Positions 158 to 33,120 of a DNA stretch of 43,321 nucleotides are shown here, piece by piece. Source of the DNA: Candidatus Poseidoniales archaeon (GTDB lineage: Archaea > Thermoplasmatota > Poseidoniia > Poseidoniales > Thalassarchaeaceae); assembly GCA_003602595.1 (NCBI GenBank), contig QQRX01000007.1, positions 1-43,321 of the forward strand, written 5' to 3'. A model generated the notes under the pieces. That model worked only from the letters and a program-made list of their open reading frames with translations. It was not told the origin of the DNA and ran no database searches. The translations under genes and the position numbers were made by a program. Within the stretch, counting starts at the first letter, position 1. Each line of letters opens with the position of its first letter.

Positions 158-1192
158 TTAATTCTTACCGACATTCAAAACATCAACTTCCAAATATACT
201 TTTTGACCTGGTCCTAAGTTTTGAACAAATGGTAATCTCATTGCTTCAAAACCTTCAGGAAGCCAAGGATCTAAAATAATTCCTTCCATACTCTTTAATG
301 TTCTATTTTCAACTCTTATTTGAACCTTTAAATGTCCATAATTAGCTAAATAACCTGTAGTTATTGCTAATTTTCTTCCTAGCATTTTTTCTGAAGTTAT
401 AGATCCCGAAGGACGCATTTCAACCCCTATCTCAATGTAGCCTTCTGGAGGAATTTCCGGTATTTCTGTCATTTTTGGACTCGTGACCCAACCCAAAGGC
501 GTAGGTATCGACATTCTCATCGGCGACATATTATTATCTCCTAAATTTTCCACTGTAATTACCATCAGTCCGTTATTTGTACTCTCGGGCCACTTGGATT
601 CTATTGAGAGGAAAAAATGATTAACTAAAAAGGGACTTAACGCCTCTCCAGTTGGAACTGAACCTAGAACGCTTATTGCCCTTTCAAAAGCATCTGTTGC
701 AGCTTTAAAATCATCTTTTGCTAATTTTTGTCTTGCTTCTCTTATCAAATTTAATGTTACTTCTTCGGAATCGCTAAGATCTCCTAGTTCATTCAAATGC
801 CTATTTATTATTGATAATGATCTCCCTAATCCTTGAGGGCCTAGGGCTGCAATTGCCTTTTCGACAGAATCGGCTGCAGCGCCCCAATTACCTTCTCTCA
901 AAAATTGTAATCCCATTGCAACAAATTCTGATGAATTCAAATCGTTTTCATTTAATTCTTCCAATTCATCGAGTTGCTTTGCCAAAGAATTCAGAGACCT
1001 AGATAAACCTAATACTTGTTCCTCTAAGAAATCTGTTTCTTTACTTAATTTTTTAAGCATTTTTGATGCTTTAAGGGGTTTATTTTTCCATATAGTATGC
1101 TGAATTTTGATAGATTCTTCATCGATATGTTCTAAAATCTTCAAAGTGGCTTCAGCTCCACCTGAATTATTGAACTCTATTTTCTTACTCAT
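158..1192 (-). CDS. Cytosolic coiled-coil protein with C-terminal beta-sandwich-like domain (344 aa), unknown function
   Basis: I do not recognise a named family. The first ~185 residues are charged and helical: a probable coiled coil near residues 45-85, then two similar helical hairpins (near 88-115 and 147-176, each with a G/D-x-x-x-A-A-x-D/A-x-x-E/F-x-A pattern) that resemble TPR-like repeats. The last ~140 residues alternate hydrophobic and polar residues with the N-L-G-D-N-N and P-P-E-G signatures seen in CARDB/NEW3 (COG1470-type) domains. There is no signal peptide or membrane helix, so it should be cytosolic. Its ATG overlaps the stop of the upstream 1678-residue membrane protein by 4 bases (ATGA), so the two are almost certainly translationally coupled and may work together, for instance by binding the cytosolic tail of the big protein. 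The partnership is inference; the ORF and operon are directly visible. Confidence 0.85.
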   Translation of the reverse strand: MSKKIEFNNSGGAEATLKILEHIDEESIKIQHTIWKNKPLKASKMLKKLSKETDFLEEQVLGLSRSLNSLAKQLDELEELNENDLNSSEFVAMGLQFLREGNWGAAADSVEKAIAALGPQGLGRSLSIINRHLNELGDLSDSEEVTLNLIREARQKLAKDDFKAATDAFERAISVLGSVPTGEALSPFLVNHFFLSIESKWPESTNNGLMVITVENLGDNNMSPMRMSIPTPLGWVTSPKMTEIPEIPPEGYIEIGVEMRPSGSITSEKMLGRKLAITTGYLANYGHLKVQIRVENRTLKSMEGIILDPWLPEGFEAMRLPFVQNLGPGQKVYLEVDVLNVGKN

Positions 1193-4100
1193 TCAGAATC
1201 CCCCAGACGATTTTTTGGTTGGAATCGGTTTGAAGATTTTTGAGATGCCAAGATTTTCTTTATTTTCATTGCCTTTAGTTCTAATTGTCCTAAATCACCA
1301 TATATCTTCTCGTAAGATCTATCGAGGTATTTCAGAACAAGATGGATAATGATAGGTGATGCCAATATATATACAAATAATCCCGTTAATCCTGATGTGC
1401 TTGTATCTAAAGCTAAATTGGGTTGAATGATTGTGAATAATAAGAAAGCAAATGGTGCACATGAAGCAATTGCCCTTAACTCTCTGAATGTTTTTCTTGT
1501 TTCAGCATCATGATTGGAAATTGAAGCACGAGCACCAGTTAATGATTTTCTTTTATCGTTATATATCGCCTGGAGTTCGGATGAAGAAGTCCAAGCAATC
1601 CTTATGGAAGTCAATATTGCTAAAGATGCACAAACAATGGGAAGCCAGGTAAACCAGTTTGTCAAAGCAAGTGCCCCTAAAGCAGCAGTAGCAAAGTAGG
1701 AGGAAAGGAGAACGTAAGAAGGTGTAAAATCTCTTAATCCATTTCTATATAGATATATTGAAGCCAATAATAATATTATTGAAACAAATGCCATGAGTGG
1801 GACTTTTAGGCTTTCATTGCCTATTTTTACTAAATAACTTGGTGGTTCCCATGATTGAACTATCAATTCTTGAGAACGTATATCGTTTGAAACGTCATTA
1901 CCCATTATCTCTAATCCTGTACCAGTTAATTGAGCATTGCATGTAATTGGCTCTCCTGTAGACCACCATGGTATAGACTTGGAGCTTATTTGCCATGTTG
2001 AATTAAAGGTTGCTTGTGATGCTAATTGCGGTATATTTTGAGAACCAGAAGCAAACGTATCTAGATACGCCCCATTACAAAAAACAGAAATTACTGATCC
2101 AGATGGTAAAACTGCATCTCCTGCATTTTTCACTTCAACAACTAATGTTGCTGTTTTACCTTCAATTAGTTGAGAATCTAAAAATCTCATCTCCATTATC
2201 ATTGGATCGGAGGTATCTGTAGTGACCAAATTTATGGTAAAGTCTGTCCAGTATTGCGCTGCATCAACAGGATCTCCGAGATTTTTTAATCTAAACGTGA
2301 ATTCATATCCATCATCTGGTGCTAATTTATCTGTATCTGGTAAAATAAATTTGAGATCAAAATAAGTATCTGAATCATAAGGCTGTACAGGGAGGAAATC
2401 AATACCTGTAAAGTCTGAAGATAATTCCTGTCCATTCGGAAGAAGAGTAAATATTGCATCATTTACAAAGAATTGCCAATTAGCTTGTGAGTTTTCATCT
2501 CCAGAAATATGCCTAGAAGCGCTCAAAAGAGTAAGATTGTATACCGCTGCAGATTCATCTGTTTGCCCTAGATGTGGTACATGCATCCACGGAATTCTAA
2601 GTATTCTACATCTGTCACCTTCGTCTTCCTCACATAAAAGTAGACCATCGTCCCATGTACTTACGGCCCCCGTATCAATTATGATGGCATCATCTGTCTG
2701 TATTCTAACAATTTCTATGGGCGTACTGAATGATGTTGTTTCTTCAGCATCATCATCAGAAGTAAATATAATATCAAAAGTACCACTTTCTCCAACATAA
2801 TGATCAGAAGCGATTGGTGTTATTTCCAATGTTATTGCATAACTCTCTTCTATTTGAATAATAAATTGCGTAGATGGGAGATTTGGATAAGATACTTGCC
2901 ATCTTGACTGTTCCGTAACACTCAATTGAGAGCTCATGGAAACTCTTGCTGGTGCATTACCTCCATTTTCAATAACATAATCAAATGTTCTAGTTTGTCC
3001 TGGAACCATATTCATGTAATCAGAAGATGAGGTGATAATTAATTCAAAATATGGTTCGATTGTGATTGCGATATTTGTTAGTCCCAAAGTCAAAAGTTCT
3101 CCATTTGTGTCTTTGAAGTCATAAGAAAATATTTGAATAGGAATATTGAATACAGTTCCAGCTTCAAGCATTACATCCGGACCTAAATTGGGTAATGTAA
3201 AATTTAGTCTTACAGGTAAGCTATTTTCACTACCTGGTTCTAATGAAACATTATTATTTTCAGTTTCGAAAGTCCATATTCCTGATGAAGGTTCGGTCGG
3301 CAAAAGAGGAATAAAAGAAACATTATTCTCAAGTAGATTACCAAGATTTAGTAAATTGAAATCTGCATTAATAGTGTCTCCTGGTTGAGCAAAATAATTT
3401 GTACTACCTTGTAAATTTAGTGCATGATCTGGGTTTACAGTTACTTCCATAGTTTTGGTATCCAATAAACTACCATTATTTGATAATTTAATATCAAAGG
3501 TTGTTGACCTATCGGCACGTGCAGTATCTGATGCTTTAGCATAAACTCGAATGATTGAGGTTGCCCCTGGGGGGACTAACATAGTTTTTGTCAATTCTAG
3601 TATAGAATCGTCTTCACTGAATGTTATAAATAAATAGTCGTCATCAGTATTTTCTAGATTTAATACAAAAGTCTGATTAGAGTTACCTGTATTATTTAAT
3701 TCAAACATTATTGTAGAAGTTCCCAATCTATCTAAAATCGCTAAATCTGATCCTGTATTCAAATTAGCATTAATCAATTCATCTAATTGGAATTTAGCGG
3801 TTGCATATGTGAGTATTTCCGCTGGTTGATCTGTTGGATCATTCGGATCTTCTGGTTCGTGCTCGTAATCACAAACACCTAGGTCTCTTTTTGTACAGGC
3901 ATAGATCATTATTTCGTGTATTTTTTCGGCACTAGCAGTTGCAGGAGGAGTGGCTGAAACAGTAAAAGATGTTTCATATGGAACAAGACATGAACTACCT
4001 ATTCCACAAAAACCTTCTATTCTAGATTTAATGGTTGTTGTGCTGCTTATTGATACAGTCCATCCAGGCATTTCAACATAATTCAAATCAAATATATCTG

Positions 4101-6225
4101 GAGAATTGCCCATATTCTTTAATGTCATTTCTGCGACTATTACTGTTCCGGGTGCGCCATTTCCAATGGTCTTTGAAATTAGTCCGGCCTCGGATATTTG
4201 TGGTATATCAAAAGATATTGAAGTAGAATTATTTGAGGTTTGGATAGTATTTCCATTATAATCATCAAGAGCAAAAGTAGTTTCAGCAGCTACAGTAAAA
4301 CTCAGTTCTCCTGCAGCCGGGTATGGATAGTTTACATTAGAAGTATGGCGCATGGTTATTACTCCATACCCACTTTCTCCAATCCCCAAACTCATTGTTG
4401 AAGGGCTTAGACCAATTGTCCATCTTTGTTCTTCATATTGTGCCGCTCCTGTAGAAATTGGAGTATGATTTAAGAATCTCTGAACTAAATTAATTTGTGC
4501 TGTGCCATCTGTTTCTGAGGCTAAATTATTTTTGGCTTGAACTCTAAACTTTAATGCTCTATTAACTGATAATGAAGTTATTTCTTCCGATGTGACTTCC
4601 TCTAAACAAACTTCATATCCTTTATTTTGTGGACAATCCGCATCCAAGGGTTCATCATCATCATCTAATAATTCAAAATCAATTTCTACTTTAGGTAAAA
4701 CATGTATTGAAGTTGTGGCGATAACATCTAAACCACCAGATAATGGTATCGCTTGCACTCTGAAAGTTAATTCCAAATCTGCATTTATTTTCAATGCTGA
4801 TTGCATAGGTATCTCCATATCAGGAAGAATAAATGTTACAGGGATTGTAATATTCTCCCCAGGCAACAAAATATTTGTTATAGTAACAGGGGCGATTATT
4901 GTCCAATAAGGAACTGCCTCTAACATTGCAGCATTAATTTGATACTGAGCAGGGGCTGTACCTGTGTTGTTCAATATATATTCATGAGTGAAGCTTTCGC
5001 CACCGGGTTCAACATTGAAATGGTCTACTCCACTTGAGTGGGAGCTGTTTTGAGTAATTGTACCTTGAAATAATTCTCCTGCCATGACAATTACAGTACT
5101 TTCCAAAAGTAAACTATTACTTTGAGACAATACGGATAGAGTTACCATCTCTGAATCACTGATATCAGCATCTTCTGGGACTTGTACTGGAATTGTAATA
5201 ACTGTTGATGCTCCTGAATCTAGACTCAGCGGATCTGAACCCGAATGAATCGTTGCTGGTGCTTTTACCCAACCACTTACATTCGTTTGAGAAACAGTAA
5301 AGGTTTCGGGTAAACTACCAGCATTTTGTAAGAGGAAAGATATGTTCGTCCATTCTCCAGGATCTACATTCCTATCAATTGGAGTAGATAGTACTGCATT
5401 TGAGAAATCAAAAGAGACTGAAATATCTGATATGCTTATGGTAGTGGTCCCGGATAATGCACCTGTTAATTGAATCTCGCCAGATATTATGTATTCTCCT
5501 TCCAGAGGCGTTCCATCAAATGAAATATCTATATTTGTAAGTAAAGCAGGACTAGAAAGACTCCCAACGGGTGGTTGTATGGTTGTTGATGTAATTGGAG
5601 TAACGTCTCCTCCGAGTACAGATGTGAGTGATAAATCAGCAGTTACATCCACAGGAACTGTACCTGAGTTTACCATTGAAATTGTTCCAGACCAAAGTCC
5701 TTTTGCTAATACATCGTCATCATCTGGCAGAGTATCCGCAACGTGAGTAGCACTTTCAACATCAAGTACATCTATATTGGACAAAAGTAATTGATTATTG
5801 CTAGTATCAGAGTCTGTGGATGAGGGGTCATTTGTCCATAAGGCAATTAAAGAAGAGCCCGAGGGTGAATTGGTTGCATTCCAGTACATTATATGATTTG
5901 ATGTCCAACCAGAAGAAATTGAAATATCCCGACTGTCTACTTCCGATGGTCCTGAGCCATCATCAACTTCTAATGTGAGAGTGCCTTCTGCATCAGAACC
6001 CCCAAAATTTACTATTGTAACTCTGATTATATGATTCATGGGAGAAACTGTGGGTACAGCCCCTACATATACCGAGGGTGTAGTTATATCTAATTGAGTT
6101 ACTGCAACGTCTGCGTTTGAAGCTTGAAAAGAGGGTTCTATGTTAGATTTTAATGTCGCTTCCGGAGTATAAGGCAAAATTGAAAGAACCATTATGGTGA
6201 CTATTAAGATTGCTTTAACCTTCAT
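1189..6225 (-). CDS. Giant secreted, membrane-anchored CARDB/NEW3-repeat surface protein (1678 aa)
   Basis: The protein starts with a clear signal peptide (basic M-K-V-K, then a hydrophobic stretch to about residue 20). It continues for ~1450 residues as a series of beta-rich modules carrying N-x-G-x-x-x-x-x-F/Y and P-G-x-x-x-x-I/V-x-V signatures, typical of CARDB and NEW3 (alpha-galactosidase-associated, COG1470) Ig-like domains. There are many N-x-S/T sequons and few cysteines (small pairs such as the C-P-Q-N-K-G-Y-E-V-C region). Roughly residues 1475-1630 hold four to five hydrophobic helices, followed by a basic cytosolic tail. The topology is therefore a large extracellular stalk anchored by a helical bundle. 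Such proteins are typical of the cell envelope of marine Euryarchaeota, perhaps as surface or adhesion proteins; the exact role is unknown. It is the first gene of a two-gene unit with the coiled-coil protein downstream, and is divergent from a YfaP-like gene. Confidence 0.9.
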   Translation of the reverse strand: MKVKAILIVTIMVLSILPYTPEATLKSNIEPSFQASNADVAVTQLDITTPSVYVGAVPTVSPMNHIIRVTIVNFGGSDAEGTLTLEVDDGSGPSEVDSRDISISSGWTSNHIMYWNATNSPSGSSLIALWTNDPSSTDSDTSNNQLLLSNIDVLDVESATHVADTLPDDDDVLAKGLWSGTISMVNSGTVPVDVTADLSLTSVLGGDVTPITSTTIQPPVGSLSSPALLTNIDISFDGTPLEGEYIISGEIQLTGALSGTTTISISDISVSFDFSNAVLSTPIDRNVDPGEWTNISFLLQNAGSLPETFTVSQTNVSGWVKAPATIHSGSDPLSLDSGASTVITIPVQVPEDADISDSEMVTLSVLSQSNSLLLESTVIVMAGELFQGTITQNSSHSSGVDHFNVEPGGESFTHEYILNNTGTAPAQYQINAAMLEAVPYWTIIAPVTITNILLPGENITIPVTFILPDMEIPMQSALKINADLELTFRVQAIPLSGGLDVIATTSIHVLPKVEIDFELLDDDDEPLDADCPQNKGYEVCLEEVTSEEITSLSVNRALKFRVQAKNNLASETDGTAQINLVQRFLNHTPISTGAAQYEEQRWTIGLSPSTMSLGIGESGYGVITMRHTSNVNYPYPAAGELSFTVAAETTFALDDYNGNTIQTSNNSTSISFDIPQISEAGLISKTIGNGAPGTVIVAEMTLKNMGNSPDIFDLNYVEMPGWTVSISSTTTIKSRIEGFCGIGSSCLVPYETSFTVSATPPATASAEKIHEIMIYACTKRDLGVCDYEHEPEDPNDPTDQPAEILTYATAKFQLDELINANLNTGSDLAILDRLGTSTIMFELNNTGNSNQTFVLNLENTDDDYLFITFSEDDSILELTKTMLVPPGATSIIRVYAKASDTARADRSTTFDIKLSNNGSLLDTKTMEVTVNPDHALNLQGSTNYFAQPGDTINADFNLLNLGNLLENNVSFIPLLPTEPSSGIWTFETENNNVSLEPGSENSLPVRLNFTLPNLGPDVMLEAGTVFNIPIQIFSYDFKDTNGELLTLGLTNIAITIEPYFELIITSSSDYMNMVPGQTRTFDYVIENGGNAPARVSMSSQLSVTEQSRWQVSYPNLPSTQFIIQIEESYAITLEITPIASDHYVGESGTFDIIFTSDDDAEETTSFSTPIEIVRIQTDDAIIIDTGAVSTWDDGLLLCEEDEGDRCRILRIPWMHVPHLGQTDESAAVYNLTLLSASRHISGDENSQANWQFFVNDAIFTLLPNGQELSSDFTGIDFLPVQPYDSDTYFDLKFILPDTDKLAPDDGYEFTFRLKNLGDPVDAAQYWTDFTINLVTTDTSDPMIMEMRFLDSQLIEGKTATLVVEVKNAGDAVLPSGSVISVFCNGAYLDTFASGSQNIPQLASQATFNSTWQISSKSIPWWSTGEPITCNAQLTGTGLEIMGNDVSNDIRSQELIVQSWEPPSYLVKIGNESLKVPLMAFVSIILLLASIYLYRNGLRDFTPSYVLLSSYFATAALGALALTNWFTWLPIVCASLAILTSIRIAWTSSSELQAIYNDKRKSLTGARASISNHDAETRKTFRELRAIASCAPFAFLLFTIIQPNLALDTSTSGLTGLFVYILASPIIIHLVLKYLDRSYEKIYGDLGQLELKAMKIKKILASQKSSNRFQPKNRLGDSE

Positions 6226-14557: not shown

Positions 14558-14992
14558 TTAGGCTCTGTGATATGGGCTGCCTCGGATAATTTCAGTTGCC
14601 CTATACATTTGTTCTAATAATATACACGCTGCAATTTCATGAGGGAGTGTCATCATCGAAAGTGATATCTGTTGATTTGATACATTTTTCAATTTATAAC
14701 TAAATCCGTCAGGAGGGCCTATAGCAAAATTAACTGTATCGTTACTAAGTGATATTTTTGATATTAAATCAGATAATTCCTTACTTGTTTTCTGGACACC
14801 GTTTTCATCTAAAATTATTAAATCGCCTTTGAGAGTGGTTAAATATTTTTCATAATTATTATTATCTTTTTTATCAGAATAAATCTTAACCATTATTCCT
14901 TTAGAAGTTACTCTGCTAGAATAATCAGAGAATATTGATGCTAAATTCTTATCTTTTATTTTACCAAAAATGTGAACAATTATTCTACCCAC
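14558..14992 (-). CDS. rlmH: Ribosomal RNA large subunit methyltransferase RlmH (SPOUT family)
   Basis: RlmH N3-methylates pseudouridine 1915 in helix 69 of 23S rRNA using SAM. The C-terminal trefoil-knot signatures are visible: L-D-E-N-G (about residue 75), F-A-I-G-P-P-D-G-F (the usual I-G-G-x-x-G with two prolines), L-S-L-S-M-M-T-L-P-H-E-I, E-Q-M-Y-R-A-T-E-I, and the terminal S-P-Y-H-R-A. The open frame extends to a TTG at 15031 (157 aa). The GTG at 14992 gives a 144-residue protein whose first strand (G-R-I-I-V-H-I-F-G-K-I-K) aligns with the usual N-terminus, so it is preferred. The protein would act as a dimer on assembled 70S ribosomes. It is tail-to-tail with the phosphopantothenate synthetase gene. 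Confidence 0.9.
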   Translation of the reverse strand: MGRIIVHIFGKIKDKNLASIFSDYSSRVTSKGIMVKIYSDKKDNNNYEKYLTTLKGDLIILDENGVQKTSKELSDLISKISLSNDTVNFAIGPPDGFSYKLKNVSNQQISLSMMTLPHEIAACILLEQMYRATEIIRGSPYHRA

Positions 14993-15066
14993 AATTATAT
15001 CCAAAGGTTTCTGTGTAATAGAATTTCGCAAAGCATCAAGACTGAATACTCTTGCGAACCATCATT

Positions 15067-17284: not shown

Positions 17285-18268
17285 ATGTATAAAAAAATTT
17301 TATCTTTGGATATTAAACGTATAATTACAGATACTGATTTAGATGGTGTGGTTACAGGAGCTATTTTGAATAGGTATTGGAAAGATGCTGAAATAATCTT
17401 CACACAAGCTGGATTATTGAGATCGGGGGAATTGGACGAAAAAATAGATATTTACACTGCAATTTGTGATTTACCATATCGTGCTAAGTGTGGATTGAAT
17501 ATAGATCATCATCAATCTAACAAACCTAGTCTAAATTTAGATATTGAAGGCATTATTGCTTGGGAAGATTCTCCTTCGGCGTCTCGAATAGCATACAATA
17601 TTGTATCCACAGAGTTAGATCTTAGTGATTTAGACGAATTGTTAGTATGGGTTGATAAATTTGATAGTGGAAATATATCCAAAGAGGAATATTTGTCAGA
17701 AAATAATATATTGTGGTTAGGCAGAATAATTGCCGATGATCCAAAAATTGCATTACATATCTTGAAATTATTAAAAGATGGTTTATCAGTAAATACTATT
17801 CTAAAAGATGATGTTATAGTTCCTATTTTATCTAAAAAAAAAGAGGAACAGTCCAAAATTATAGAAATAATAAGAGATAAGATGGAAATAATTAACAGGC
17901 TTGCAATAGTTAATTTTGAAGGACATGGAATTCGGTCAAACGGCTACAGTGTAACTGCAATAGCTGGTAATGAATGTGATGCATGTATTGTAATACATGG
18001 GAAATTAGGTTCTTCGTTTGAGGACTATCCAAATTATCCAGCATCTGCCTCTTTCTATACTAATTCATTTTTACATAAAAATAAGGGCGTTTATGATTTA
18101 ACAAAATTAGCGAGAAGATTTGATGAAGAAGGAGGAGGTCATCCTAATGCTTGTGGTTGCAGAATCAAAATTATTGGGAATAATCAATCAAATAAAGGAG
18201 AGGTCCAAAAAAAAGATCTTGACGATAATTTAAATGAATGGATCAGAATGTGGAATAAAAATATTTAA
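17285..18268 (+). CDS. DHH/DHHA1 family phosphoesterase (RecJ/NrnA-like)
   Basis: The N-terminal DHH domain has D-T-D-L-D-G at residues 16-21, a later C-D-L-P strand, and the name-giving D-H-H at about 74-76. Downstream, W-E-D-S-P-S-A-S-R-I-A and W-V-D-K-F-D continue the metal-binding face. The C-terminal DHHA1 domain ends with the substrate-binding glycine motif G-G-G-H-P-N-A-C-G-C (about 286-295). By family it is an Mn-dependent phosphodiesterase acting on short oligonucleotides, nanoRNA, cyclic dinucleotides or single-stranded DNA. At 327 aa it is too short for full RecJ and lacks the OB domain, so NrnA- or archaeal RecJ-like is more likely. It is convergent with the small membrane protein, overlapping by 4 bases. 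Confidence 0.87.
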   Translation: MYKKILSLDIKRIITDTDLDGVVTGAILNRYWKDAEIIFTQAGLLRSGELDEKIDIYTAICDLPYRAKCGLNIDHHQSNKPSLNLDIEGIIAWEDSPSASRIAYNIVSTELDLSDLDELLVWVDKFDSGNISKEEYLSENNILWLGRIIADDPKIALHILKLLKDGLSVNTILKDDVIVPILSKKKEEQSKIIEIIRDKMEIINRLAIVNFEGHGIRSNGYSVTAIAGNECDACIVIHGKLGSSFEDYPNYPASASFYTNSFLHKNKGVYDLTKLARRFDEEGGGHPNACGCRIKIIGNNQSNKGEVQKKDLDDNLNEWIRMWNKNI

Positions 18269-18729: not shown

Positions 18730-18834
18730 ATAACTCGGTAGGCGTGTATGACTTGAGTTCTCTGTTGTTTAATTTGATTATGTGGGCGATGTATTGATGT
18801 ATGATTGCTAAAGGGCTCTTATTAGTGAGTTCAG

Positions 18835-21800
18835 ATGGAGCAGTATCTTCTTGAATGTTTAGATTCTTTGTCTCAATCTGGTGATGATAAAAAAAGAAGA
18901 TTGAATAGGGTTCAAAAGATATCGGCATGGGATTTGTTAAACAAGGAATGGCGTGCTTTAGTTGCCTTGGCGGCTAAAAAAGAAAGTTTGCCAGAAGTAA
19001 CTAAGGATACTGGTGGAAACCTTACACCTTTCAATCCAAATCGTAATAGAAAAATTGGAAGGAGAGGAGGAAAGGGACTCAGAAGGAGTTTGGAGGATAA
19101 TTTGGAGCATCCATCTGATGTAATTTTGTCTAAAGAATCAGAAGGGTACAAATTGGCCGTTTTGATAGCACAGAAAATAAAAATGGGAAATTCATGGAAT
19201 TTAGAATGGAATTCACATTTAGATACTTTAAGAAAATCTTGTGAAAAGGGAATACATCCTGTTTGGAATAAATTGGCTAAAGAGGCAAATATTTTTGCTG
19301 AGCTTAGTAGATTCAAAATAAGTCATGATAGTAAAAAGAATAAAGATTCTTCCCTTTGGATTAATAGTTCCTATTTTGATCCAGAAGATACTGTAGAATT
19401 GAAATCATGGCTGGACATGAGTCTACCATTTAATGCAAAAACTGATCAACTAAAAGTAATTCAAAAAATAAAAAAAGATATGGGCAATAAACCTCGGTTT
19501 TCAGAATGGAATAAATGGATTGATCCTGTTCTAAGAAATCAAAGTAAAGAAATGGCATTGATTGAGGGGATGATACTTGCCTGCTGTAAACATGGTGATG
19601 CTATCAAAGTTTTAGATAACATATCTGAAAAATCTATTGTTGATGTGGCGAAAAAACAAGTTAGATTATTAAAATTACGTGCCGGTAACTTAACTAATTG
19701 GGAGGAAGATTCCAAAATAGAAAAAGAAGATTTGTTATCACAATCAATCAGAACTACTGCATGGAGACAAATTGAAAATATCGAGAGGGATTTTACTATT
19801 GAGGAGTTACGTTTTGGTATAGATGTTTTATCTAATTCAGAAAAAAAAGTACCAGATTTCATTATCTGGAAATTAGTGTTTAAATTATTTGAAATAAATG
19901 AATTAGAGCAGGCTTATGATGCTGTAAATGGCCTAATAATTAGGAATAATGAGCAACTGAAAATTGCATTAAAAATAAATCTGAAAAAAGATATCGCGAC
20001 GATAATAGAACAATCTTTGGATAATTTAGATGAGGAGGGGCTTTTAGTAGTTGCAAAAGATCCCAGTTGTAATAACGAAATAAGAATAAAAGCTGCAACT
20101 AAAGTCTTAGAGTCTGATTCTATTAGATACATGAGTGATATCTTAGATATTTTTACTGATGTGGCTGATATTGAAAATCTAGCAAAGGTTTTGGTAGAGA
20201 ATAAATCACTAGCTAAAGTTTATCCGGAACGTGTTTTGATGATTTGGCATATGATTAGTGCAGAAAATGCAAAAAATATAGCCGATGAATTAGAAATTTT
20301 AAGAGATGATGCACTTAAATCAATTACTGATTCTCCTGAAGATTTGATTCTTTCTGAGGTTTCTAAAGCACTAATATCTCTTCTTGATGGCATTCCAAGA
20401 GATATGAATATAATTAATCAAAAATTGGATTCGGATGGTTTATTGGCGCTAAATGAAGTTCGCAGAGCATTATCTCCTGAAGGAGATAGCAGGGTTAGCA
20501 CGAAATCAATACAAAAACTAGAAGATTCAATAAAAATTGCAGACTTAGATTATTTGGAAAGGCGGTTGTTTGAATCACTAGGTGATTCTTTGTTGCTAAA
20601 TAGGATTGCAATGGACATAGAAAGTGGCATGTCGGACAGAGTGACAGAAGCAAATCAGACTTTGATTTCGATAACCTCTAAAGATAATATTTCTATGCAG
20701 AATGTAAGATTTGTGATTGAAATGATTATTGAGCATGGGAAAATAATTGCTGAAGGGATAATTCCTTTGGAAAAGTGGTATAGAAAAAATGATAATAATA
20801 GTTTAGATTCTAGACTTATTAAGGCCACAATACAAAGTTCACAAGGCAATTACATTCAGGCTGCAAGAGAATATGAAGATGCAGCAAAAAGAATCAAACA
20901 TGATTTTGAAAAATATGCATTAATTATGAGAAAGGCGTTAATATCTTATGCTCATGGAGGTGGATGGAATAATTCCGTAAATCTAATCAATTCAAAACCT
21001 GCGCTATCTGCTTCAGTAACAGAAAGATTTCAATTATACCTCAACGTTTGTAATGATGAAGTAGGAAATAAAAAGGACAAGGCAAGGAATCGGTTACATG
21101 AATATGCATTAAAGGAAGTACAATCTGAAACGTCAAATATCAAAGAAAATAGAGAAGCACAAATAGAGGCTTTAGAGCTTTTTATGCGATATCCAGAAGA
21201 GTTGGATCCTCCGCTACCAAAATCTCCATTTCAAGGTCGAGTTAGAGCAGCAATACGTGGATTACAAGGAATAGAAAATACACATAGATCAGAGCTTGAT
21301 TTAAAATTTGAACAAGAAATGTCTAGAGAAAAAAAGGATATTTATGAAATTCAATCTATAGCAAATCAAATTGCAGATTATGCTCCTATCAGGGGATTAC
21401 GAAAATTAGAACGGGCAATTTCTTCTCCTAATTTATCAGAAAATAATAAGACTACGTTAGAAAGGGTTGCTGGAGCAATGTTCGTGCAACATAGCGAATC
21501 CATACCCATAAAAGAAAGGGGTATGTTACGTAATCTTTCACTAAAACCTGTAGTCATTGTAGATACAAATATTTTGATTGACACTCTAAAAGATGATTTA
21601 TTACGAGAAATGTCCGGTGATAGTTTTGGAAGCCTTAACTGGACCGGAGATAGGTCATTCCATTGGATGCTAAGAAGAAGAAGTAAGGAAAAATTGATGT
21701 TCATGAATATTCCACCAATGGTAAGAGCAGAATTTCAGAATAGAGTCAAAACTCCTAAAGATGTATTAGAATTATTTTCTAAGAATGTATATGTAGATTC

Positions 21801-22230
21801 CAAAACTTGGAATGAAAAAATAACTAAAACATTACTTGAAAAGAAAGTAAAACAGATTTGTAAAGAATTCGGTAATTGGGATTGTAAAATCAATAAAAAA
21901 AGAATGAAAGAAATTGAACTAGAAGAATTTATGATACAACATAAAAATATATTTGAAGAGTTAACTAAACAAAAAATGAGTAGAGAAGATAATTCAAAGA
22001 GAAGTACAATAAAAGGTCAAGAAATATATCCTGAAGGAGGAGATATTCAAATAATGCGTTATGCAGCTGAACTATGTAATAATATTAATCCAGAAATAGG
22101 AAAAGTAATTATCGCAACTAGGGATGCTGATTTCAAATTAATCTCAAGATCTTTAGAGGAAGAATTTGGATTTGGAATAGTCGGAGATGCACAGGAGCTT
22201 AACAGAAGAATATTGAGAAAGGTTTCCTGA
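18835..22230 (+). CDS. Helical-repeat protein with C-terminal PIN nuclease domain (1131 aa)
   Basis: About the first 900 residues are helical and charged with no membrane segments. They include a basic patch near 60-85 (N-R-N-R-K-I-G-R-R-G-G-K-G-L-R-R) and TPR/HEAT-like helical pairs, for example around 680-720 (Y-I-Q-A-A-R-E-Y-E-D-A-A-K-R). The C-terminal ~220 residues form a PIN domain with all four acidic positions: V-I-V-D-T-N (about D910), V-R-A-E-F (E966), G-G-D-I-Q-I-M (D1070) and A-T-R-D-A-D-F (D1096/D1098). PIN domains are metal-dependent RNases. The large helical part may be a substrate or partner platform, for example on RNA or ribosomes. No antitoxin-like gene flanks it, so a VapBC toxin role is unlikely. 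The full-length family is not recognised. The ATG at 18835 is the first codon of the open frame, and the nearest gene upstream is divergent. Confidence 0.85.
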   Translation: MEQYLLECLDSLSQSGDDKKRRLNRVQKISAWDLLNKEWRALVALAAKKESLPEVTKDTGGNLTPFNPNRNRKIGRRGGKGLRRSLEDNLEHPSDVILSKESEGYKLAVLIAQKIKMGNSWNLEWNSHLDTLRKSCEKGIHPVWNKLAKEANIFAELSRFKISHDSKKNKDSSLWINSSYFDPEDTVELKSWLDMSLPFNAKTDQLKVIQKIKKDMGNKPRFSEWNKWIDPVLRNQSKEMALIEGMILACCKHGDAIKVLDNISEKSIVDVAKKQVRLLKLRAGNLTNWEEDSKIEKEDLLSQSIRTTAWRQIENIERDFTIEELRFGIDVLSNSEKKVPDFIIWKLVFKLFEINELEQAYDAVNGLIIRNNEQLKIALKINLKKDIATIIEQSLDNLDEEGLLVVAKDPSCNNEIRIKAATKVLESDSIRYMSDILDIFTDVADIENLAKVLVENKSLAKVYPERVLMIWHMISAENAKNIADELEILRDDALKSITDSPEDLILSEVSKALISLLDGIPRDMNIINQKLDSDGLLALNEVRRALSPEGDSRVSTKSIQKLEDSIKIADLDYLERRLFESLGDSLLLNRIAMDIESGMSDRVTEANQTLISITSKDNISMQNVRFVIEMIIEHGKIIAEGIIPLEKWYRKNDNNSLDSRLIKATIQSSQGNYIQAAREYEDAAKRIKHDFEKYALIMRKALISYAHGGGWNNSVNLINSKPALSASVTERFQLYLNVCNDEVGNKKDKARNRLHEYALKEVQSETSNIKENREAQIEALELFMRYPEELDPPLPKSPFQGRVRAAIRGLQGIENTHRSELDLKFEQEMSREKKDIYEIQSIANQIADYAPIRGLRKLERAISSPNLSENNKTTLERVAGAMFVQHSESIPIKERGMLRNLSLKPVVIVDTNILIDTLKDDLLREMSGDSFGSLNWTGDRSFHWMLRRRSKEKLMFMNIPPMVRAEFQNRVKTPKDVLELFSKNVYVDSKTWNEKITKTLLEKKVKQICKEFGNWDCKINKKRMKEIELEEFMIQHKNIFEELTKQKMSREDNSKRSTIKGQEIYPEGGDIQIMRYAAELCNNINPEIGKVIIATRDADFKLISRSLEEEFGFGIVGDAQELNRRILRKVS

Positions 22231-31347: not shown

Positions 31348-32175
31348 ATGTCCATTAGTGTCGACGTGGTGATTCCAACATTTCGGAGACCAGATGTATT
31401 ATCTAGGTGCTTAAAATCATTAAGTGAACAAACTGTCGCACCGCAGTCAATCGAGGTTATTGATGATTCAGAAACTGATTTTGGGCCTGGTACATCAAGA
31501 AATATAGGTTGGAAAAAAGGTAATGCCGATATTGTAGCCTTTCTAGATGATGATTGTGTTGCTCCATCAAATTGGATAGAGACCATATTAAAAATATTTG
31601 AAAAAAATAATTCAATAGGTGGAATAGAGGGGGCTATGACTACAATAGATAAAATGGGGAATATAGTGTCTCATAATCCTCCTACACGATTTAAATGGGA
31701 TCGTTTCAAAACAGCTAATTTAATAATAAAAAGAGAAGTTTTGGAAGAAGTGGGTGGCTTTGATGAAAGGTATCATTTGCATAGAGAAGATACGGATTTA
31801 GCATGGAAAGTTATTGATGCAGGATATTCGATAATATGGGCTCCTGAGTGTATAATGCATCATCCTGAACCTTTGGGGTCAATGGGAACATATGCGCCTT
31901 ATCCCAAGTCTGAACAATTACTTTATCGACGCAATCCTAAGAAATATGTAGAAAGTGCTGCTGGACTAATATCTAGAAGTAGTGTTATTAGTGGAGACTT
32001 ATGGAAATTACAAAAAAATTTAAGAAAACCACAAAAAAATAGTGATGTCAAACCATTATCCAGATACGAATCTTGGTCATTATGGAGTAAGGCTTGGTTC
32101 GTTGCTGTATTTTGGCTTATTAGAAAAAATTTGGTTGGAGAGCCAAAAAGAGTTTCAAAGAACTTACGAGTGTAA
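31348..32175 (+). CDS. Glycosyltransferase family 2
   Basis: A 275-residue GT-A glycosyltransferase, presumably adding sugars to surface glycans or N-glycan precursors. The start V-D-V-V-I-P-T-F-R-R-P-D-V-L-S-R-C-L-K-S-L is classical. I-D-D-S-E-T-D, a G-T-S-R-N-I-G-W helix and A-F-L-D-D-D-C-V-A-P (the D-x-D metal site, about 67-76) follow. G-G-F-D-E-R-Y-H-L-H-R-E-D-T-D-L-A-W-K (about 131-148) is the typical acceptor-side acidic motif. No membrane helices are evident apart from a weak hydrophobic patch near the end (W-F-V-A-V-F-W-L-I). First gene of a small decoration cluster with two sulfotransferases. Confidence 0.9.
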   Translation: MSISVDVVIPTFRRPDVLSRCLKSLSEQTVAPQSIEVIDDSETDFGPGTSRNIGWKKGNADIVAFLDDDCVAPSNWIETILKIFEKNNSIGGIEGAMTTIDKMGNIVSHNPPTRFKWDRFKTANLIIKREVLEEVGGFDERYHLHREDTDLAWKVIDAGYSIIWAPECIMHHPEPLGSMGTYAPYPKSEQLLYRRNPKKYVESAAGLISRSSVISGDLWKLQKNLRKPQKNSDVKPLSRYESWSLWSKAWFVAVFWLIRKNLVGEPKRVSKNLRV

Positions 32176-32182
32176 GAAGTTT

Positions 32183-33085
32183 TTATTTTATATAATTATC
32201 AATAATATCAGTCCATTTTTTTGTTGAAAATCCGGTAATAGACTCAAATAACATCAAATCTTCCAGGATTTCTTCATAACAAACTGAATAATGTAAATTA
32301 GTAATTTCATGGGGTTTGCTTTTACTACTTATTATTGGGGCTGAATAAATATTTATGCCTTTATTCTGTAATCTTTTTACAATTGGGTTTTTCAAAAAAT
32401 TTGGTATTGATGAAAATATTATCTTTAAAATGCTTCCAACTAATGTCAAAGGCCTCCTATCAGAAGCTTTATTCGCGTTCTTAATCATTTCTAAATCATA
32501 ATTATACGGTTCTAATTCCAAAAACTGTTCAATTTTTTGTAATGTTTCCTTTTGTTTATTTTTCATTATATTGCTGTCAATAATTATGAAGTTATTCATA
32601 TCAAAATATTTTAACCAACGTTCCATTGATTTTCCATACAACGAATCATATCTCAATCTTTCATCTCGCCATGCAAAAGAAAAATCTGACCAATTGACAT
32701 TATGTCTTTTATCTTCTTCTGTTTCTATAATCATTCTCCAATGGCTAAAGGCTCTTGAAATGGGTTCACGGATACATAAAATAAATTTCATATTTGGGAA
32801 TTTATCATATATTCTCTTTGGTGCTAAAGGGCAGGCAAATGTATGTATTGAAGCATCTATTTTCATTCTATTATCATCAATAAAAAATTGTTTATATTCA
32901 TCCCACACTAGATTATTGGTATTTCTACCAAAAGTTCCCTTATGAGTTGAGAAAAAATTCGGCTCTTTTGGGTTTGAAAGTTGTAGATCGGGGTGCTGGG
33001 ACAATGCATTCGCCAACCAAGTTGAGCCGGATTTAGGAACGCCTACAATATATCCGCCTAATGTATCCAAATATGACCCCCCCAT
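32183..33085 (-). CDS. PAPS-dependent sulfotransferase
   Basis: This is a soluble sulfotransferase that would move sulfate from PAPS onto a carbohydrate or similar acceptor. The 5'-phosphosulfate loop is Y-I-V-G-V-P-K-S-G-S-T-W-L (residues ~11-23). The 3'-phosphate motif is I-L-C-I-R-E-P-I-S-R-A-F-S-H-W (about 104-118). The H-P-D-L segment after the P-loop and E-P-N-F-F are family-typical. The open frame has a TTG at 33088 directly before ATG 33085; ATG is taken, giving 300 aa. It is convergent with the glycosyltransferase (7-base gap) and divergent from a second, different sulfotransferase-like gene, so all three probably decorate one surface glycan. Confidence 0.9.
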   Translation of the reverse strand: MGGSYLDTLGGYIVGVPKSGSTWLANALSQHPDLQLSNPKEPNFFSTHKGTFGRNTNNLVWDEYKQFFIDDNRMKIDASIHTFACPLAPKRIYDKFPNMKFILCIREPISRAFSHWRMIIETEEDKRHNVNWSDFSFAWRDERLRYDSLYGKSMERWLKYFDMNNFIIIDSNIMKNKQKETLQKIEQFLELEPYNYDLEMIKNANKASDRRPLTLVGSILKIIFSSIPNFLKNPIVKRLQNKGINIYSAPIISSKSKPHEITNLHYSVCYEEILEDLMLFESITGFSTKKWTDIIDNYIK

Positions 33086-33120
33086 CAATCCGAATCAATC
33101 GGTAGATATGAAAAGTATGA

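Follow-up and report, generated by a model that had tools for sequence, protein, structure and literature searches.

A helical solenoid joined to a PIN nuclease domain with an intact active site: a candidate lineage-specific endoribonuclease of Candidatus Poseidoniales

We analysed a 43,321-nucleotide stretch of DNA (the window) from a Candidatus Poseidoniales archaeon of the family Thalassarchaeaceae (contig QQRX01000007.1 of assembly GCA_003602595.1, positions 1 to 43,321 of the forward strand). One of its genes, at 18835..22230 on the plus strand with the stop codon included, encodes a protein of 1131 residues that joins a long helical solenoid and a C-terminal, putatively catalytic PIN nuclease domain in one polypeptide. 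Our best reading of this solenoid-PIN protein is a lineage-specific endoribonuclease with its own scaffold, which may work in the manner of SMG6; we claim no relation to SMG6. That it is an active endonuclease acting on RNA in general we consider likely. In the full reading, which we hold with middling confidence, it would be a metal-dependent PIN endoribonuclease whose solenoid docks on a ribonucleoprotein (RNP) and which serves quality control or turnover. Briefly, the solenoid, aided by an Arg/Gly-rich loop, would dock on an RNP (ribosome, stalled mRNA or pre-RNA), the PIN domain would then cut the RNA endonucleolytically, and other RNases would complete the work.

The open reading frame (ORF) runs from an ATG through 1131 codons to a stop, exactly as in the original prediction, which had been made from the DNA letters without database searches, and homologues align to it from residue 1–2 to the end. 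The gene is single-copy in the source genome. Used as a query, the window protein had a match in 87 of 97 Ca. Poseidoniales genomes, a set that includes the source genome. Counts of named loci given below refer to 80 stretches kept from 248 that encode a relative. Searches of Pfam, NCBIfam and PADLOC with the window protein alone returned nothing usable (for PADLOC, 0 families at E <= 1); the original prediction had named a match to a described family as its refutation, and none covering the whole protein was found in these three collections. Matches to SWIB, RecG, VOMI, MgtE and similar profiles were weak and were set aside as chance, and searches of PDB sequences gave unrelated weak matches only. 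As judged by these searches, the family is without a name so far, and the whole protein belongs to no Pfam, NCBIfam or PADLOC family. A literature search returned no paper joining a PIN domain with Poseidoniales, nor one joining it with a solenoid, archaea and ribonuclease, a mention in PIN classifications or reviews being possible; the one paper joining it with Marine Group II concerns viral capsid genomes.

The acidic residues of the PIN active site are intact across the family. They are D910, the first, in the motif VDTN (21562..21564), E966 (21730..21732), D1070 in YPExxD followed by xxIM (22042..22044), and the last two, D1097 and D1099, in ATRDxDF (22123..22131), all on the plus strand. 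Across 97 distinct full-length homologues, a set that leaves out 10 distinct shorter sequences (fragments, edge-truncated pieces and two pieces of locus L168), four of the five are unchanged in 97/97 and D910 is D in 96, the remaining one (L130) having an X there. A 43-row alignment has 38 invariant positions, and among its 178 D/E positions only these five are invariant; if the limit is set at 98% instead of invariance, E1067 joins them. That these five acidic positions and no others are invariant is difficult to account for if the site is not catalytic. The original prediction spoke of four acidic residues and proposed to look for their loss in homologues: the intact set stood, and none is lost in the 97, but the number is five. 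Simple counting gave ratios of nonsynonymous to synonymous substitution (dN/dS) of about 0.07 between the window and L003, 0.13 between L005 and L006 and 0.14 between the window and L005. The two halves of the protein gave similar values, and by this measure it is under purifying selection.

We placed the PIN domain at residues 901–1131 (21535..22227, plus strand) from PIN-clan Pfam matches in homologues, a domain model and structural alignment with VIA-align. Residues 831–1131 modelled alone reached a predicted local distance difference test score (pLDDT) of 88.8 and a predicted TM-score (pTM) of 0.86. In VIA-align, the best partner of this model was the VapC structure 3zvk_B (Z 11.2, 131 of 133 residues, root-mean-square deviation (rmsd) 2.8), and it also aligned to 6a7v_G (Z 10.8), HARP 8ssg_E (Z 8.4), SMG6 2hww_B (Z 7.6, 122 residues, rmsd 3.6) and Rrp44 4ifd_J (Z 7.5). 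The alignment to VapC structures over their full length bears out the claim of a complete PIN domain, a fold in which alpha and beta elements alternate around a central sheet. The core of 3zvk_B is spread across 215 model residues, and there is therefore an insertion of ~85 residues between the second and third acidic motifs; the alignment span and the helices of the domain model place it, as a helical insertion, at residues about 971–1056 (21745..22002, plus strand). At the sequence level the window protein alone matched no PIN family in Pfam. Across 31 homologues, PIN-clan models matched at E <= 1 (PIN in 7/31, PIN_12 in 6/31, NYN in 4/31 and PIN_3 in 3/31), all weakly, with a best E of 1.7e-4 for PIN_12. 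Among viral models, Foldseek found nothing similar to the PIN model at E <= 0.001.

Residues 1–900 (18835..21534, plus strand) form an all-helical solenoid, TPR-like at residues about 530–815. The AlphaFold2 model of the whole protein, built from the 43-row alignment (mean pLDDT 85.8, pTM 0.68), has 54 helices and no strand of at least three residues before residue 904, which agrees with the helical repeat of ~900 residues that had been predicted. Foldseek and VIA-align matched the solenoid to TPR and other helical solenoids, and it resembles TPR and other scaffolds that dock on proteins or RNPs. The best local match, over model residues 616–811, was LGN (Z 9.8, 161 residues, rmsd 5.3). We do not take such matches as kinship because they are ordinary for helical repeats; Ski3, IFT-A, Ctr9 and APC/C were rejected as kin, with TM-scores of at most 0.26 in the Foldseek rows listed. 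No 14-3-3-like protein stands out among the solenoid matches listed, which are generic and exclude nothing. Near its N terminus the solenoid carries an Arg/Gly-rich basic loop, GRRGGKG, at residues about 69–84 (19039..19086, plus strand), recognised in the AlphaFold2 model and the alignment. The patch reads NRNRKIGRRGGKGLRR and lies in a region of low model confidence, near residues 55–82. Its RRGG core is conserved, R77 occurring in 97/97 homologues and R76 in 87/97, in keeping with the basic patch noted earlier. Loops of the RRGG type often contact RNA.

Such a loop could also bind DNA, and the PIN and FEN folds are related, so that a structure-specific DNA nuclease, a FEN-like relative serving repair or replication, has to be considered; the window even holds TopoVI and a primase-like gene, elsewhere and not adjacent. 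The structural neighbours returned, however, are RNA-cutting PIN proteins (VapC, HARP, SMG6 and Rrp44), and none of the conserved immediate neighbours is a repair gene, leaving a DNA nuclease quite improbable in our estimate. RNA as the probable substrate is thus argued from the PIN superfamily and from these structural neighbours.

The distribution of the gene follows the lineage. With a profile of 43 homologues, 76 of the 292 genomes searched across the phylum gave a match, always within families f1 or f2; the six sampled genomes of f3, a sister family in the same class, gave none. With a PIN-only profile (31 rows, E <= 0.1), the only match outside f1 and f2 was a single weak one, in G251 (E 0.01). 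In a tree of two neighbouring genes, a record from Thalassarchaeaceae falls within f1, and one from Poseidoniaceae groups with f2. The named contigs that carry the nearest homologues come from metagenome-assembled genomes of Marine Group II or Ca. Thalassarchaeaceae. The restriction to the lineage, for which a presence/absence check had been proposed, was thus borne out save for that one weak PIN-only match. By its position and relatives, the gene is inherited vertically at one locus across the order, and a single-copy, syntenic, order-wide gene speaks for a cellular function.

Ten of the 97 genomes of the order gave no match. Five of these (G005, G010, G030, G033 and G059) have completeness of 60–86, and the missing gene may reflect incomplete assemblies; the other five are all of the sampled genomes of genus g6. 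In four of the g6 genomes (L084–L087), one contig spans the interval from the DHH-type gene to the isocitrate-dehydrogenase-type gene, the pair that borders the solenoid-PIN gene in other genomes, with no trace of it between them, and in the fifth (L088) the contig stops about 1 kb beyond DUF4079. A tree of the DHH-type and isocitrate-dehydrogenase-type proteins nests g6 in f1, within a set of 27 rows (support 96/95) that also includes the carrier genera g1, g4, g9, g10 and g11; L088, represented there by one of the two proteins only, is placed apart from the other four g6 rows. Because members of f1 and of f2 have the gene in one shared position, gene loss is the simplest reading of its absence in g6, and because it was lost while its neighbours remain, the gene is dispensable in that genus.

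Dispensability in one genus would also suit an antiviral or dormancy effector, in which a foreign or stress signal sensed by the solenoid would free the PIN domain to cut tRNA or mRNA. Conflict proteins commonly couple a solenoid sensor to a nuclease. PMC7159879 counts PIN as one of the effector domains of conflict systems. Against such a role, no PADLOC model matched, the gene keeps one chromosomal place with vertical inheritance across the order, and its sequence changes slowly (dN/dS 0.07–0.14). In addition, no relative was confirmed in viral contigs, none was found in phage records, and, for the PIN part only, none was found in plasmid records. We regard an effector of this kind as improbable.

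Several observations accompany this survey. Where the gene is lost, L084–L087 have a short gene beside the isocitrate-dehydrogenase-type gene, SAM methyltransferase-like by eye, and in L084 and L085 the interval from the DHH-type gene to the isocitrate-dehydrogenase-type gene also encodes a hydrophobic protein of 274 residues, probably a membrane protein. Contig C17 of genome G088 (L036) carries a second, f1-like gene fragment with 46% identity to the window, as against 31% for the full copy of G088, and record L142, labelled Neomarinimicrobiota, has a Poseidoniales-like copy, probably on a mis-binned contig; bin contamination is the probable source of both. Two assemblies, G081 (contig C42:24652-28009) and L168, show the gene split into two overlapping frames, from a frameshift or an assembly error.

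The gene stands alone at its locus. A 105-bp divergent intergenic region (18730..18834), defined by spacing and an ORF scan, separates it from its upstream neighbour, a DUF4079-like gene on the minus strand, and no same-strand ORF of at least 20 aa overlaps this gap in the window. The upstream neighbour is divergent at 104–159 bp in 65 of the 80 named loci, the remaining 15 giving no match, some of them at contig ends. Downstream, 51 loci have a recognised neighbour, and in all 51 the nearest one runs on the opposite strand. It follows from these orientations and the empty gap that the gene, as read from its sequence context, forms a transcription unit by itself and leaves no space for an antitoxin; the original prediction had likewise placed it alone without one.

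This arrangement bears on a further explanation, that a VapC-type toxin domain was fused to a scaffold that now serves as its own antitoxin. VapC is indeed the best structural match, with the closest PIN core in VIA-align and the same order of acidic motifs. However, VapC toxins have about 133 residues against the 1131 here, and the solenoid-PIN gene comes without VapB, with neither an antitoxin gene nor space for one, as a near-universal, single-copy, core syntenic gene and not a mobile module. The general PIN model PF01850 reached E <= 0.001 in only 3 of 15 Poseidoniia genomes; because these matches fall at the places of Nob1, the search shows no VapC toxin in the 15 genomes. We consider the fusion highly improbable. 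Toxin-antitoxin and mobile-element readings in general were rejected on the PADLOC and PF01850 results, the viral, phage and plasmid searches and the orientations of the neighbours.

Does the protein stand in for a standard RNA-processing factor? We compared presence and absence in 15 or 16 chosen genomes that included carriers and non-carriers of the gene. Archaeal RNase P RNA was found in 14/15, Nob1-type PIN_6 in 15/16, exosome-type RNase_PH proteins in 15/15 and RtcB in 14/15, in each case with and without the solenoid-PIN gene. These distributions gave no support for a replacement of RNase P or Nob1 or for co-loss with exosome-type or RtcB genes; as far as tested, the protein replaces none of the four. 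In the source genome (G000), the PIN_6 model PF17146 matched on contig C8 and not on C73, the contig of the window.

These data also bear on an rRNA or tRNA maturation endonuclease, in which the PIN domain would make one defined cut, like Nob1, Utp24 or protein-only RNase P, while the solenoid grips the pre-rRNA or pre-tRNA particle. A near-universal, single-copy gene whose PIN fold is close to the HARP and SMG6 types fits such a role, and the helical spike of HARP offers a rough parallel to the helical insertion of the PIN domain. With HARP, a minimal protein-only RNase P, the protein shares a PIN-type metallonuclease core, but it has a giant solenoid where HARP is a small oligomer, and a replacement of RNase P is not needed because carriers and non-carriers both have RNase P RNA. 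Nob1 is likewise an archaeal PIN nuclease of ribosome maturation, but the source genome has its separate Nob1-type gene. The presence of both factors in carriers and non-carriers alike, and the fact that g6 lives without the gene, leave such a maturation endonuclease unlikely. The loss in g6 and the factor distribution argue against an indispensable processing role and lean weakly toward one that cells can do without, for example quality control or turnover; because of that loss and the presence of the standard factors, we prefer surveillance or turnover over obligatory maturation.

The known protein whose plan the solenoid-PIN protein most recalls is SMG6, which acts with UPF1 to cut mRNA in nonsense-mediated decay. 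PMC12923823 describes SMG6 as a TPR-like domain followed by a C-terminal PIN domain with four acidic residues. In the group of SMG6/EST1A, SMG5 and yeast Esl1/Esl2, the shared plan is a large helical TPR-like part and then a C-terminal PIN domain with canonical acidic residues. Unlike SMG6, the protein is archaeal, its solenoid has ~900 residues, and its PIN domain carries the insertion of ~85 residues. A search of PDB sequences with the PIN profile (E <= 10) gave no SMG6 chain, though SMG6 structures are in the PDB, and because no sequence relationship was found the likeness is one of plan only. Rrp44/Dis3 and Ski3 of the exosome pathway each resemble one half, Rrp44 by its PIN domain and Ski3 by its TPR solenoid (4buj_B, Foldseek E 2.3e-5), but there they are separate proteins, and the Ski3 match is generic and shows no relationship.

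Several points weigh against a lineage-specific RNA endonuclease. The PIN model found no PDB match by Foldseek at E <= 0.001, from which we take the domain to be divergent; its relationship to PIN proteins is visible by VIA-align only, which re-aligns Foldseek's own candidates. The profile search of PDB sequences likewise had no PIN chain among its 13 matches at E <= 10. The PIN superfamily also includes DNA-cutting relatives, the loss in g6 means that the protein is not universally needed, and the conserved neighbours share no RNA theme or common function, bar a possible DHH phosphoesterase. We infer that the protein is catalytically active, that it acts on RNA instead of DNA, that it docks on an RNP and that it serves quality control or turnover, not essential maturation. 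The original prediction of a new RNA-processing or RNA-surveillance nuclease of this lineage held in its anatomy, intact active site, lack of an antitoxin and lineage restriction; its RNA substrate, and the choice between processing and surveillance, are things we still infer. A more specific version, which we think doubtful, is that Poseidoniales have a co-translational or ribosome-associated mRNA surveillance endonuclease, a convergent counterpart of SMG6, in which the solenoid would recognise a stalled or faulty RNP and the PIN domain would cut the mRNA.

Were the protein an RNA surveillance endonuclease, the scaffold-plus-PIN plan of eukaryotic nonsense-mediated decay would have arisen independently in archaea. 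Few archaea of surface seawater are as abundant as Ca. Poseidoniales, which have no cultured member (PMC6461757). That a single-copy nuclease of 1131 residues, present in nearly all of their genomes, has no family name leaves a wide gap in what is understood of their RNA metabolism. Genus g6 provides a natural knockout, and the targets could be approached without culture by setting RNA ends in metatranscriptomes of genera with the gene against those of genera without it.

The conserved gene order around the locus comprises genes for a SPOUT methyltransferase, a cobalamin adenosyltransferase, a NUDIX protein, the DHH-type protein, the isocitrate-dehydrogenase-type protein, OsmC and a class II ribonucleotide reductase. 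The DHH-type phosphoesterase-like protein (17285-18268, plus strand; weak DHHA1 match), possibly a second nuclease, adjoins the PIN gene in many genomes and is also kept in g6 without it. The SPOUT methyltransferase (14558-15031, minus strand; PF02590, E 1.7e-30) lies within a conserved archaeal gene order and belongs to a family known mainly from bacteria, as RlmH. Elsewhere in the window, a sulfotransferase (32183-33088, minus strand; PF13469, E 1.4e-14) beside a family 2 glycosyltransferase (31348-32175, plus strand) suggests sulfated surface sugars. A 1678-residue protein at 1189-6225 on the minus strand, with weak Ig-like (HYDIN/CFA65, E 2.2e-6) and CARDB matches, is probably a large surface protein.

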